A stretch of 64,000 nucleotides of DNA, taken from Fidelibacterota bacterium (lineage in GTDB: Bacteria > Fidelibacterota > Marinisomatia > SCGC-AAA003-L08 > TS1B11). The notes under the pieces were generated by a model. It saw only the letters and a list, made by a program, of their open reading frames with translations. It was not told the origin of the DNA and made no database searches. Shown piece by piece: positions 2,636 through 24,147 of this stretch; the first letter of the stretch is position 1; each line of letters begins with the position of its first letter. The stretch covers positions 2,716,578-2,780,577 of the forward strand of contig CP070638.1 of assembly GCA_020354025.1 (NCBI GenBank), given 5' to 3'. The position numbers and the translations under genes are program-made.

Positions 2636-3744
2636 ACGTTGGCAAAGACACCGAATTGAAACTGCAGATTCTGGTTGTGGATGATGAGGCCGATATTCGC
2701 AACTATCTGAGCGATTTTCTTACCATGAAGGGATTCGGAGTACAGCAAGCCGAAGATGGGGCGATGGCTCTTGACATACTGCATCGCAGTGAGGTCCATC
2801 TGGCCTTTGTGGACCTTAATCTCCCGGACATGAACGGATTCGACATTATTAAGCAAGCTAAGCAGGTCGTTCCGAACCTGATTGCTGTGATCATGTCGGG
2901 TATGCCTATCGAGTCATGGGAGGCACTTAGCCAGCACGGGGTGAATGAGCATATCACCAAGCCATTCACTTTTGAAGAGCTGACATATCTAATTGATAAA
3001 AATGAAAAATATATTCGCGCACGGCGCTACAGCGAAAGTTTGAAGGAACGGCTGCGAATAGAACAGGAGAAGAGCAGCTTCTTTTTCGAAGCTGGACACC
3101 AGCTAAAAACACCCATAGCTGTTTTAAAAGAATTCATCCACCTTTTTCAGGAGGGTTTCGGCGGAGAGATGACGGATAAGCAGATTCAATATCTGAAGGT
3201 AATTGATCAGAATATTGATCGTCTACTATATCTGGTGGATAATATCGAGAATTTGGGTCGAGTGGAAAGTGGCAGCTGGAGAATCCAGATAAGAGATGAA
3301 GAACCAGAAAAGATCATAAACCATGTGACTACCAGCTTGCGCCCAATTCTCCGGCGACACGATCTCCAACTGGTAGAAGAGGTGGCCGATAACCTTCCCA
3401 ATGTGCACACGGATACAGCGGCCATCGAGCAGGTGCTCTTTAACCTGGTTGACAACGCCAGCAAATATGGTCCTGCGGGCAGTACCATTACACTCCGCTG
3501 CTTTCAATCCAGCGATTCATTTGTGTGCATTGAGGTAGAAGATCAAGGACCAAGCATCCCCGAGGATAAGCGGGATGTTATATTTCAGCCTTTCGCCCGC
3601 CTTCCCGAGCACGAATCTGCTTCCGGCCTGGGATTGGGTCTCACGGTAGCCCTAAGCCTAATGAAGCGTATGAAAGGCGATCTCTGGCTCGATAACAGCA
3701 GTAAACCTGGTAATCGGTTCTGTCTTCGACTACGGATCGCCTAA
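2632..3744 (+). CDS. REC-histidine kinase
   Basis: The 370-residue protein has an N-terminal receiver (DD at 17-18, phospho-acceptor Asp61 in VDLNLPDMNG, Lys110 in TKP), then a HisKA domain with His156 in GHQLKTP, and a full ATPase domain: N box with Asn275, G1 at 304-306 (EDQGPS) and G2 at about 332-336 (GLGLGL). It lacks transmembrane segments, so it is a cytosolic kinase whose own receiver probably controls it. The ATG overlaps the upstream TGA (ATGA), so translation of the DHp protein and kinase is probably coupled. Within the cassette it is the only protein with all the motifs needed to make phosphate available. Confidence 0.93.
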   Translation: MNVGKDTELKLQILVVDDEADIRNYLSDFLTMKGFGVQQAEDGAMALDILHRSEVHLAFVDLNLPDMNGFDIIKQAKQVVPNLIAVIMSGMPIESWEALSQHGVNEHITKPFTFEELTYLIDKNEKYIRARRYSESLKERLRIEQEKSSFFFEAGHQLKTPIAVLKEFIHLFQEGFGGEMTDKQIQYLKVIDQNIDRLLYLVDNIENLGRVESGSWRIQIRDEEPEKIINHVTTSLRPILRRHDLQLVEEVADNLPNVHTDTAAIEQVLFNLVDNASKYGPAGSTITLRCFQSSDSFVCIEVEDQGPSIPEDKRDVIFQPFARLPEHESASGLGLGLTVALSLMKRMKGDLWLDNSSKPGNRFCLRLRIA

Positions 3745-18176: not shown

Positions 18177-18638
18177 ATGTTGAGAAAAGCCACTTACGTA
18201 ACTTTCCTGGGTATCATCGTAGCCGTCATCGGGGTCATCACCCTGAAAAGCAGGTTCCCCATCGGCCCTGTTGTACTGGTACTTTCTGTTGTCCCTCTAG
18301 GTGGGTTACTGCTGATCAGGCGTCCCCTGGTTGGTGCCGTTCCTGACCTAATCTTCGGGGCGCTTGACACTGGCCTATTAACCATTCCAGCCCTCTGGGG
18401 CGGGGTGATGTTCGGAGTGGCTGGAGCCATTGCCGGCGGGGTGGTCGGCGACGCCCTGACTGACGGTATCGCTGGATTCTTTGAGGGCGGCATCGCCGAG
18501 TGGCTTCGTAAACAGGGCATCGAGGAATCCCGAGAGCCGATAACCACCTCCCTGGGTAAAATGACCGGCTGTCTGGCTGGGAGCGGGATTGTACTGACAG
18601 TTGCCCTTGTTTTCGGTATTGTTCCCGAATTTGCTTGA
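18177..18638 (+). CDS. Small integral membrane protein
   Basis: The 153-residue protein starts at an ATG with a strong GGAGG site eight bases upstream. It has about four hydrophobic segments: residues 7-24, 28-48, a Gly/Ala-rich stretch at about 63-95, and 128-148. I do not recognise the family. The soluble loop at about 105-125 (EWLRKQGIEESREP) is charged. It overlaps the alkyltransferase-like gene by TTGA. Confidence 0.65.
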   Translation: MLRKATYVTFLGIIVAVIGVITLKSRFPIGPVVLVLSVVPLGGLLLIRRPLVGAVPDLIFGALDTGLLTIPALWGGVMFGVAGAIAGGVVGDALTDGIAGFFEGGIAEWLRKQGIEESREPITTSLGKMTGCLAGSGIVLTVALVFGIVPEFA

Positions 18639-18970
18639 CCGTGCCAGGTTCCCTCTATGACCGCATCTGCGAGGTGGTATGCCGTATCCCGCGCGGCAGG
18701 GTAGCTTCATACGGTCAGGTAGCGGCGGAGGCCGGTCTGCCAGGCCACGCTAGGTTAGTCGGGTATGCTCTCCACAACCTCCCCGATGACACGAACGTTC
18801 CCTGGCACCGGGTCGTAAAAGCCCGGGGTGGCATCTCCTTGGACATTGAATCGGGTGCCGGGCGGTTTCAGCGGGCTTTGCTGGAAGCCGAGGGAGTGAT
18901 CATTAGTGGACCTGATGTAATCGATCCCAGGTATTTCCTATCAGACAGCTTCACTGATCCCATGGAATAA
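18635..18970 (+). CDS. Alkyltransferase-like (MGMT-family) DNA-binding protein
   Basis: The 111-residue protein is the DNA-binding half of O6-methylguanine-DNA methyltransferase, with the winged-helix region IPRGRVASYGQVAAEAG and VGYALHNLP. The catalytic PCHR motif reads PWHR here, so the acceptor cysteine is absent. Proteins with this change (ATLs) bind O6-alkylguanine and pass the lesion to nucleotide excision repair, with no methyl transfer. The start is TTG at 18635, overlapping the previous stop, or GTG at 18641. Confidence 0.88.
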   Translation: MTVPGSLYDRICEVVCRIPRGRVASYGQVAAEAGLPGHARLVGYALHNLPDDTNVPWHRVVKARGGISLDIESGAGRFQRALLEAEGVIISGPDVIDPRYFLSDSFTDPME

Positions 18971-18973
18971 CGA

Positions 18974-19672
18974 ATGAAAGTCATCGGTCTTATCGGGGGA
19001 TTAAGCTGGAAATCCTCCGCTGAGTACTACCGCGCAATCAATGAGGAAGTGCATCGGCGGCTGGGCGGAAGCCACTCGGCCAGAATTGTCCTCTTCAGTC
19101 TCGATTTCCAGGAGGTGCACGACCTCCAATATCAAGGCCGGTGGGAGGAAGCCGCAGCCATCATGGTGAATGCCGCGGTAAACGTTGAGCGGGCCGGCGC
19201 GGAGGTATTGTTGATATGCTCGAACACGATGCACCAGATGGCTGACCGGGTAAAGGCCGCCGTATCTATCCCGCTTCTGCACATCGCCGATGCCACCGCC
19301 AAGGCCATCCAGGCCGCCGGACTCAAGCGGATCGGCCTGCTCGGCACCCGCTTTACTATGGAACACGATTTCTACAAGGGCCTGCTTACAAACCGATACG
19401 GCCTGAAAATCATCATCCCTGATGAGGCCGACCGGATCGTAGTACACGACGTAATCTATCACGAACTAGTAATCGGCGATGTGCTGTCTGCGTCAAGAAC
19501 AAACTATCACGAGATCATTCAACGATTGATCTCGCAAGGGGCCGAAGGAATCATCCTGGGCTGCACCGAGATCCCCCTACTGGTGAAGCCTGAAGATGCA
19601 GGCGTGCCCCTTTTCGACACCACTACACTTCATGCCCGAATGGCGGTGGACCGGGCACTGGCTGAGGATTGA
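18974..19672 (+). CDS. Aspartate/glutamate racemase family protein (YgeA-like)
   Basis: The 232 residues align closely with E. coli YgeA. GLIGGLSWKSSAEYYRAINE opens the protein, with CSNTMH at 82-87 and GCTEIPLL at 196-203. The two catalytic positions of the YgeA L-Asp/Glu racemase (Thr83, Cys197) fall on Ser83 and Cys197. It should interconvert L- and D-aspartate or glutamate in the cytosol, giving D-amino acids for the cell wall or for reuse. Ser83 could alter the direction or rate. It overlaps the UDG gene by TGATG. Confidence 0.9.
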   Translation: MKVIGLIGGLSWKSSAEYYRAINEEVHRRLGGSHSARIVLFSLDFQEVHDLQYQGRWEEAAAIMVNAAVNVERAGAEVLLICSNTMHQMADRVKAAVSIPLLHIADATAKAIQAAGLKRIGLLGTRFTMEHDFYKGLLTNRYGLKIIIPDEADRIVVHDVIYHELVIGDVLSASRTNYHEIIQRLISQGAEGIILGCTEIPLLVKPEDAGVPLFDTTTLHARMAVDRALAED

Positions 19673-20256
19673 TGTCGTCCTACAAGAAATTGTCTGACCA
19701 GGTCCGTGCTTGTCGCCGGTGTCGGGGTAGTTGCTTCGACCACGAGCCCCGGCCTGTCTTCCTGGCAGAGCCTTCGGCAAAGGTTATGATTGTAGGCCAA
19801 GCTCCGGGTCGACGGGTGCATGAGACCGGTCTCCCGTTCAATGATGCCAGCGGGAATGCACTCCGGGAATGGATGGGGATTAACCGCGAGCAGTTTTATG
19901 ACCCAACCACTTTTGCCATCATCCCCACGGCCTTGTGCTACCCCGGTACGGAAAAGGGCAAGGGAGACCTGCCGCCGCCCCCTGTCTGCGCCCCTACCTG
20001 GCACCCGCGGTTCCGGGAGTATATCAAGCCCGAACTGACTCTGCTGATAGGGGCTTACGCCCAGGCTTACTACCTGAACAAAAAGCAACCGGTATCGGCT
20101 GTGGTGGCTCGCTGGCGGGAGTACCTGGAGCAGGGATTGTTTCCCCTGCCACACCCTTCACCCCGGAACCGTAAGTGGCTAAGTCAACGGCCGTGGTTCT
20201 TCGAGGAGTGCGTCCCGGTACTGCGGGAGCTGGTCAGCCGGTACATGCCCGCATAG
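19672..20256 (+). CDS. Uracil-DNA glycosylase superfamily protein
   Basis: The 194-residue protein has the UDG-superfamily motif A (VGQAPGRRVHETGLPF) and motif B (PLPHPSPRNRKWL), so it probably excises uracil or related bases. The N-terminal CRRC, a Cys in TALCYPG and another in PPVCAPTW could hold an iron-sulphur cluster as in families 4 and 5. The HPSPRN form differs from the family-4 protein at 62440-63186, so the window has two distinct UDG-fold proteins. The start overlaps the racemase stop (TGATG). It converges with the minus-strand gene that follows. Confidence 0.85.
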   Translation: MSSYKKLSDQVRACRRCRGSCFDHEPRPVFLAEPSAKVMIVGQAPGRRVHETGLPFNDASGNALREWMGINREQFYDPTTFAIIPTALCYPGTEKGKGDLPPPPVCAPTWHPRFREYIKPELTLLIGAYAQAYYLNKKQPVSAVVARWREYLEQGLFPLPHPSPRNRKWLSQRPWFFEECVPVLRELVSRYMPA

Positions 20257-22032: not shown

Positions 22033-22701
22033 TCACAGGATCGGATCGGTCACCTCGATAGAATCAAGCTTTTCGTTATCTACCAAGGAGCTGACTTTGT
22101 GGGCTTCCATCTCGTCATTAGGATACGGCTTGCATAAAGGTAACACCTCCTCAGCCGCGGTGATTTCGCGATTTAGCCATTTAGCCAGCCCTGCCTGTGA
22201 GAGGATCACTGGCATGCGGTAGTGGATAGGAGCCACCAGCTCGTTGGGCGTGACGGTAACGATAGCGCAGCTATAAATGGGATCTTCTCCTCTGGGGCCC
22301 CACACTTCCCACAATGCGGCCAGGGCAAAAGGGACGCTGTTACGGAGGTAGATATACCACGGCTGCATTCCCTCATTGGACTTCTGCCAGAGGAAGAATC
22401 CATCGGCCAGAACCGCGCAGCGCCGCTTTTCCAGGCGCTCCTGCATGGCCTCCAGCTCGAGCAGCGATTCCTGCCGCACCTGGAACAATCCCGCCCCCAC
22501 GGCCTGATGGTGAGCATCGGCAGGGATCAGCCCCCAGACCAGCTCCGTGATCCGGTTGATCCCCTCTCGCTCCGCCAGCACCAGTACTTTCTGACCCGGA
22601 GCGATATTATAACGCTGCCGAAAAGGTCGGCCTATCTCCGTCAGTTGAAACCGGCGGAGCAGGACTTCTTCCGGCGTGGAAAGCGACAAGCGTAAAGACA
22701 T
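22033..22701 (-). CDS. SRAP (HMCES/YedK) homologue with lost catalytic residues
   Basis: The 222-residue protein is clearly of the SRAP family, which covalently protects abasic sites in single-stranded DNA. The canonical start MCGRFSL is MSLRLSL here, so Cys2 is Ser. The other active-site positions of E. coli YedK map at almost the same numbers: Asn75 is replaced by Gln74 (FQVRQES), Glu105 by Leu104 (DGFFLWQK), and only His160 (PIHYRMP) remains. YNIAPGQ and LVWGLIP are intact, so the fold is probably kept. A DNA-protein crosslink through Cys2 is impossible. The start follows from the position of MS at the family N-terminus and an upstream AAGGA; a frame extension of ten codons begins MPCC. 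Confidence 0.88.
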   Translation of the reverse strand: MSLRLSLSTPEEVLLRRFQLTEIGRPFRQRYNIAPGQKVLVLAEREGINRITELVWGLIPADAHHQAVGAGLFQVRQESLLELEAMQERLEKRRCAVLADGFFLWQKSNEGMQPWYIYLRNSVPFALAALWEVWGPRGEDPIYSCAIVTVTPNELVAPIHYRMPVILSQAGLAKWLNREITAAEEVLPLCKPYPNDEMEAHKVSSLVDNEKLDSIEVTDPIL

Positions 22702-22951
22702 GATCTGAAAATTCCTTAGACAGCAGGGCATCCAATTGTGAAAAACTCACCTGGAATGACCTAACACCCAGTCTTTAGCCAACGATAGGCCCGAAAACAA
22801 TGAAATGCAAGAGTTGTTAGTACGCTGCCGAATCTTTATGCCGCCTGGTATCTGCAAGAAAATAGCGGTAATTAACCATATAATAGGATAGCTTCCGGGG
22901 CGATTATAGAGTCATAGTAAATAGAAAACTTGATTGAAGGAGCATCCAGTC

Positions 22952-23851
22952 ATGCAGTTTGTCCTGTTTCTTATTATCGCCATCATCGCTTTTGGCCTTG
23001 CCGTGCAGCTGCGCCGCCGATATGAGCTCTCCCAACGGCTGGCCGCCATGGGATTGAGAGCCTGGTTTATCCAGTTGATCGGTGTATTCGCCCTGGTCCT
23101 TGCAGCAGCCCAGACCCTCACCGTTATCCAGGCCGGCAGTGTGGGAGTGGTCAAAGTCTTCGGTAAGGTTAAAGACGCCCCCCTTTATGAGGGGATTAAC
23201 GTTAGGAATCCCTTCGCAGAAATCATAAAGATGAACATTAAGACCCAGGAGCGCCGGGAGGAGATGCGGGTTCCCTCGAAGGAAGGGCTCACGGTGGGGC
23301 TGGAAGCCAGCGTCATCTACCATCTGGACGGAATTATGGCCCCGGAGGTGTACAAGACCCTCGGCCGGGAGGAAGACTACGTCCGCAAGATCCTGCTGCC
23401 CAACTTCCGCTCTGTGGTACGGGGCATCACGGCACAGTACGAGGCCAAGGCCTTGTATACCGATATGCGAGAGGAGGTAGCCCAGAAAATCCAGGAGCAG
23501 CTCAACACGGCCACGACACCCCGGGGTGTCATCATCGAGTCCACCCCGCTACGGCAGGTGGCGCTGCCCACGGACCTGAGCACCGCCATCGAGGAGAAGC
23601 TCCGGGCCGAGCAGGAGAGCCAGCGTATGGAGTTCGTGCTGCAACGTGAGGGCAAGGAGGCCGAGCGCAAGCGCATCGAGGCCCAGGGTATCAGAGACTT
23701 CAACAAGACCGTGGCCGAGGGCATCAGCGATAACTTCCTGCGCTGGAAGGGCATCGAGGCCACTGAGAACCTAGCCGGCAGCGCCAATGCCAAGGTGGTG
23801 GTTATCGGCTCCGGTAAGGACGGCCTGCCGATTATTCTGGGGGGGCAGTAG
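22952..23851 (+). CDS. SPFH/prohibitin family protein
   Basis: The 299-residue membrane protein starts at the ATG at 22952, placed nine bases after GAAGGAG; an in-frame TTG at 22934 overlaps that ribosome site and is less likely. It has two hydrophobic segments (residues 1-16 and about 37-58), a band-7/SPFH domain (QAGSVGVVKVFGKVKDAP at about 61, RVPSKEGLTVGLEASVIY), and a charged coiled coil (EEKLRAEQESQRMEFVLQRE). Such proteins form oligomeric scaffolds on the inner membrane, often controlling FtsH-type proteases. A DUF503 gene follows after 14 bp. Confidence 0.88.
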   Translation: MQFVLFLIIAIIAFGLAVQLRRRYELSQRLAAMGLRAWFIQLIGVFALVLAAAQTLTVIQAGSVGVVKVFGKVKDAPLYEGINVRNPFAEIIKMNIKTQERREEMRVPSKEGLTVGLEASVIYHLDGIMAPEVYKTLGREEDYVRKILLPNFRSVVRGITAQYEAKALYTDMREEVAQKIQEQLNTATTPRGVIIESTPLRQVALPTDLSTAIEEKLRAEQESQRMEFVLQREGKEAERKRIEAQGIRDFNKTVAEGISDNFLRWKGIEATENLAGSANAKVVVIGSGKDGLPIILGGQ

Positions 23852-23865
23852 CAGGTTAGGATCCT

Positions 23866-24147
23866 ATGCACATCGCCCTCCTGAGCGCCGGTATATCCAT
23901 CCCCGAGGCACACTCTCTGAAGGACAAGCGCCGAGTGGTCAAGTCCCTGAAGGACAGGACCGTCAATCACATGAACGTTTCCGTGGCCGAAGTCGGTCAA
24001 CAGGAAGTATGGAACCGGGCGGAGCTGGCCTTCGTCACGGTGGCGGCGGAGAAGCGGATCGTGGAGCGGCGTCTTTCGGAGATCGCCGAGCGGCTGGAGC
24101 GGAACCATGAATGGGTACTTATGGAGGTGAGGACGGAATTCCTATAG
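23866..24147 (+). CDS. DUF503 family protein (YlxP-like)
   Basis: This 93-residue protein has the DUF503 sequence: ISIPEAHSLKDKRRVVKSL, then HMNVSVAEVGQQEVWNRAEL. The family is small and widely conserved and in some bacteria lies near ribosome or translation genes; its function is not settled. Here it follows the prohibitin gene. The length is normal. Confidence 0.9.
   Translation: MHIALLSAGISIPEAHSLKDKRRVVKSLKDRTVNHMNVSVAEVGQQEVWNRAELAFVTVAAEKRIVERRLSEIAERLERNHEWVLMEVRTEFL

Follow-up and report, generated by a model that had tools for sequence, protein, structure and literature searches.

SRAP proteins are defined by a cysteine at the second position, and their biology is explained through the covalent capture of abasic (AP) sites. 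The founding description of the superfamily called this cysteine 'absolutely conserved' and proposed two conserved arginines, R86 and R180 of 1zn6, as DNA contacts (PMC3765255). Here we analyze a window of 64,000 nucleotides from a Fidelibacterota bacterium (contig CP070638.1, positions 2,716,578 to 2,780,577) that carries an SRAP gene whose product lacks this cysteine together with two further catalytic residues.

The contributions of the active-site residues have been dissected in YedK of E. coli. Without Cys2 the stable crosslink is not formed while Schiff base formation and lyase activity remain: C2A and C2S variants both form a borohydride-trappable Schiff base, and C2A has lyase activity. 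The most damaging changes are E105A and E105Q, which nearly abolish crosslinking, and the lyase activity of C2A/E105Q is 25-fold below that of C2A. Replacing Asn75 by Ala has a small effect at internal AP sites, and DNA binding persists when Cys2 is blocked and E105Q or H160Q is present in addition (PMC9436759). We found no report of a natural SRAP protein without the cysteine in the openly licensed papers that were searched.

Results

The gene is read on the minus strand from an ATG at 22701 to a stop codon at 22035-22033, and its product starts with MSLRLSL and ends with DPIL. Its match to PF02586 reaches 186.7 bits against a gathering cut-off of 27.1 (E = 5.2e-55) and spans profile positions 1-213 of 214. 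An AlphaFold model based on 39 aligned sequences has a mean predicted local distance difference test (pLDDT) score of 90.4 and a predicted template modeling (pTM) score of 0.90; the loop 61-70 is weak, with a pLDDT of about 62 for the His64-His65 loop. At E < 0.001, Foldseek returned SRAP-fold structures only from the PDB, with a template modeling (TM) score of 0.86 both to HMCES (6oeb, from the HMCES-DNA complexes) and to the complex of YedK C2A with AP-DNA (8d2m). By homology and predicted fold the window protein is a member of the SRAP superfamily. It resembles YedK and HMCES in domain length and across the full length of the fold, and the model and the Foldseek matches support the original prediction that the fold is intact outside the active site.

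We aligned the window protein and its relatives with YedK as translated from E. coli NC_000913. Cys2, Asn75, Glu105 and His160 of YedK correspond to Ser2, Gln74, Leu104 and His160 of the window protein, and the anchors of the alignment (MxxR, xxRxE, DGFFxW and IHxRMP) are unambiguous and leave no space for realignment. This confirmed the predicted loss of three of four catalytic residues: among the residues that mark a catalytic SRAP, Cys2, its positioning residue Asn75 and the general acid/base Glu105 are missing and His160 alone is kept. No second SRAP gene was found in the source genome (one 3.40-Mb contig, Candidatus Neomarinimicrobiota), where the gene in the window stands alone.

Four relatives carry the same protein, three from within the genus and one from another genus of the family (74, 76, 80 and 61% identity). 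One of the same-genus genomes (G001) matches the metagenome-assembled genome (MAG) CP070787, Candidatus Neomarinimicrobiota. In YedK numbering, all five members share Gln75, Leu105 and His160. Four of them have Ser at position 2 and the fifth (G003) has Ala, by the aligned codon; none has Cys there. As the five genomes were assembled separately, the original argument that the losses are not a sequencing error at one site holds. The catalytic residues were lost long ago in a single lineage, and the loss has become fixed.

Beyond the active site, the window protein shares R4, N37, P40, W61, R77, E79, D101, G102, W106, T149, H160, R162 and P164 with YedK (YedK numbering), and R4, R77, E79, D101, W106, T149, H160 and R162 are kept in all five members. 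Unlike YedK and HMCES, the clade has an altered W67 (D, E or N), A76 (V) and C-terminal Asn motif (N209 to D or E). It has a set of invariant residues of its own (A61, H64, H65, A67, V68, G71, Q74, V75, S79, L83, M86, R89 and L104), each rare or absent among canonical SRAPs and together concentrated at 61-89 and 104. Residues 61-120 are the most conserved stretch of the clade; they contain two of the three lost positions and surround the altered pocket.

An in-frame ATG lies upstream of the assigned start, at 22731, and would give MPCCLRNFQIMSLRL (MPCC...). It places cysteines at positions 3 and 4, several residues before the family N-terminus, so we rejected it as a source of Cys2, in agreement with the earlier remark that MPCC is not aligned with that terminus. 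The MSLRL start is preceded by a Shine-Dalgarno-like AAGGA. In G001 and G002 the leader upstream of the start shows no sequence relationship to that of the window gene and lacks MPCC, and G005 starts with GTG and reads M-S-L-R-L. In G003 the Ala codon is preceded by ATA and the first clear ATG stands directly before Arg4, which indicates that the N-terminal residue is not conserved in the clade.

We compared the clade with other SRAPs. In about 80 other SRAPs of the phylum, a set that includes 40 picked mainly from the lower end of the scores, no readable position departs from Cys2, Asn75 or Glu105; His160 is also present, save in shortened copies or at an unreadable letter (L171). All four catalytic residues are kept in 79 readable viral sequences, a weak test of Asn75 because the set was gathered partly by a pattern containing this residue. 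A profile built from the five members scored the clade at 418-463 bits, and across 245 genomes of the phylum no other SRAP exceeded 149 bits. Scanning genome contigs for exact 8-residue patterns, which would miss distant members, found the clade in two same-genus MAGs only. No viral relative of the clade was found, and the best plasmid (38.5%) and phage (about 35%) matches are within the range of canonical SRAPs; a mobile or viral origin was rejected on these grounds.

Two irregular SRAP genes were seen during this survey. A canonical SRAP gene in a genome of the same order (L020, G016:C4:15337-15954) contains two in-frame stops (TAG and TAA) and may represent a pseudogene, recoding or a MAG error. 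In an SRAP gene of a Chloroflexi MAG (L031, near 2960-3710), the frame encoding MCGRYSL differs from that of the rest, marking a frameshift near the N-terminus.

The clade is under purifying selection. In the closest pair, nonsynonymous divergence (dN) is 0.038 and synonymous divergence (dS) 0.44, not near saturation, giving a dN/dS of about 0.09; between the window gene and that of G003, dN is 0.13 versus a dS of about 1.5. The divergence of the SRAP protein (61-80% identity) is on par with that of its syntenic neighbors (SPFH 77-83%, M28 63-65%, GDPD 65-66%). In a phylogenetic tree the five members form one clade with a support of 100; its stem measures 1.53 changes per column and leads to shorter branches. 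We read the long stem and slow crown as a probable burst of change followed by renewed constraint. The placement of the clade among canonical SRAPs is compatible with vertical descent and with transfer alike.

Genomic context

About 80 bp upstream of the SRAP start lies a promoter-like element (Table 1) in which CTTGCAT is identical and CTATCGT nearly so in all five genomes (G000, G001, G002, G003 and G005). We read it as the putative SRAP promoter; it is not among the matches of a consensus promoter scanner. The divergently oriented SPFH gene is followed by a DUF503 gene, and the contig of G003 stops just past SPFH. Five of the six family members that lack SRAP have an SPFH gene all the same, and no SRAP remnant adjoins it. 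A functional tie between SRAP and SPFH is therefore not required, and we rejected dependence on SPFH. In one SRAP-less member the intact SPFH gene is accompanied by another copy (L081, G004:C1:604948-605598) that contains an internal TAG.

A link to the uracil-DNA glycosylase encoded in the window was rejected as well because this gene is not syntenic in the relatives. The source genome has the AP endonuclease Nfo, so other AP-site handling exists in the genome. Rfam gave no RNA element near the SRAP gene, and PADLOC matched no defense system.

Table 1. Features of the window discussed in the text.
Feature	Position	Strand	Evidence
SRAP-domain protein, 222 aa	22033..22701	minus	PF02586; alignment with YedK and relatives
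Promoter-like element TTGCAT-N17-TATCGT	22810 to 22782	minus	aligned upstream regions, five genomes
SPFH/Band_7 protein	22934..23851	plus	PF01145, 94 bits; divergent neighbor in 5/5 SRAP-clade genomes
DUF503 protein	23866..24147	plus	PF04456, 95 bits; next gene, synteny in G001, G002 and G005
Uracil-DNA glycosylase (UDG)-superfamily protein	19669-20256	plus	PF03167, 98 bits; NCBIfam family 4 and UdgX models score only weakly
AGT-like DNA-binding domain protein	18635-18970	plus	PWHRV instead of PCHRV

Discussion

We favor, with moderate confidence, the view that these proteins form a lineage-specific SRAP pseudoenzyme in which the fold is selected, AP-site crosslinking has been lost and a ligand is most likely bound non-covalently. 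From the YedK mutants we infer a loss of activity: with Ser2 and Leu104, crosslinking is expected to be absent and lyase activity to be low. The window protein, with Ser, Gln and Leu in place of Cys2, Asn75 and Glu105, is thus predicted to differ from YedK and HMCES in lacking the thiazolidine crosslink. It would be a natural counterpart of the crosslink-dead C2A and C2A/E105Q proteins (PMC9436759, 8d2m). In contrast to these engineered mutants, the clade is natural and fixed, Asn75 is also gone and residue 105 is Leu rather than Gln.

The retention of R4, R77, T149, H160, R162 and other residues fits non-covalent binding, and the two arginines of 1zn6 probably correspond to R77 and R162. In the mechanism we propose, the ancestral fold would be retained under purifying selection, and AP-site crosslinking, that is ring opening and Schiff base formation through Glu105 and thiazolidine formation through Cys2, would be lost. 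The ligand would be held non-covalently by the arginines and the pocket that have been kept (R4, R77, T149, W106, H160 and R162), and the bound protein might shield or flag abasic or damaged single-stranded DNA. Judged from the sequences, non-covalent DNA binding appears to be the likeliest reading. Kept intact by selection in five related genomes, the protein probably acts without covalent attachment or in some changed role.

Several observations weigh against such a role. W67, found in 40 of 41 canonical SRAPs, is lost in the clade, as are the Lys that canonical SRAPs carry at YedK position 84 and the C-terminal motif of the VNSPKNN type, which indicates that the DNA-binding surface has been remodeled too. 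The conserved neighbors include no DNA-repair gene; SPFH and DUF503 are not SOS genes. The source genome encodes LexA, and neither a LexA box nor a 5+5 palindrome was recognized upstream of the SRAP gene, the operator of this host not being established. Elsewhere in the genome, lexA is followed by a gene for a Y-family polymerase and preceded by a candidate operator with TTAATGTACGATTAA (L162, G000:C1 near 1341801).

The remodeled surface leads to the question whether the protein might have acquired a new ligand or activity and play no role at abasic DNA, using a pocket formed by the His64-His65 loop, Gln74, Leu104 and the retained His160, Arg76 and Arg162. The clustering of the clade-specific invariant residues, the strong conservation of residues 61-120 and the long stem with its slow crown would all suit such neofunctionalization. 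We nevertheless regard it as unlikely, as the model is of low confidence at the His64-His65 loop and no neighboring gene points to a substrate.

Less probable still is an AP enzyme of reduced chemistry, in which removal of the initiator Met would expose the alpha-amine of Ser2 for a transient Schiff base and AP lyase activity, with help from His160. The residual chemistry of YedK C2A and C2S, the presence of Ser2 after Met in four of five members and that of His160 in all of them speak for this option. The sharp drop in lyase activity once E105Q is added to C2A and the variable N-terminal residue of the clade, exemplified by G003, speak against it.

Decay of the gene or a sequencing or assembly artifact is very improbable. 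Decay would produce the loss of several catalytic residues, and SRAP is absent altogether from six other members of the taxonomic family; we rejected this explanation because the frames are open and without stops in five genomes, the Gln and Leu substitutions are identical, dN/dS is low and the protein has diverged much like its neighbors. Equally hard to credit is a canonical Cys supplied by an alternative start or by N-terminal processing, for which the MPCC frame and an in-frame TTG-TGT a little ahead of the ATG in G003 could be cited, since the cysteines of the MPCC frame fall before the N-terminus of the family, the relatives G001 and G002 have unrelated leaders, AAGGA precedes the MSLRL start and Glu105 and Asn75 would still be absent.

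A crosslink-less SRAP pseudoenzyme would have a parallel in the ATL/YbaZ proteins, relatives of the suicide O6-methylguanine methyltransferases that have lost the reactive cysteine and are now non-covalent lesion binders. The likeness is one of analogy only, as fold and lesion are unrelated and binding by the clade SRAP is presumed. Separately, the AGT-like protein encoded in the window is itself an ATL protein without the reactive cysteine. It belongs to a known kind; together with SRAP, which lies about 3 kb away, it makes two Cys-less repair proteins in this region.

As far as sequence reaches, the interpretation put forward in the original prediction is supported, with a fixed SRAP pseudoenzyme lineage as its apparent bearer. 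If it is true, a selected lineage that lacks the crosslink and has this protein as its sole genomic SRAP would mean that selection can maintain the fold for a function other than crosslinking. The clade SRAP would then offer a natural separation-of-function protein for the effects of non-covalent binding alone.
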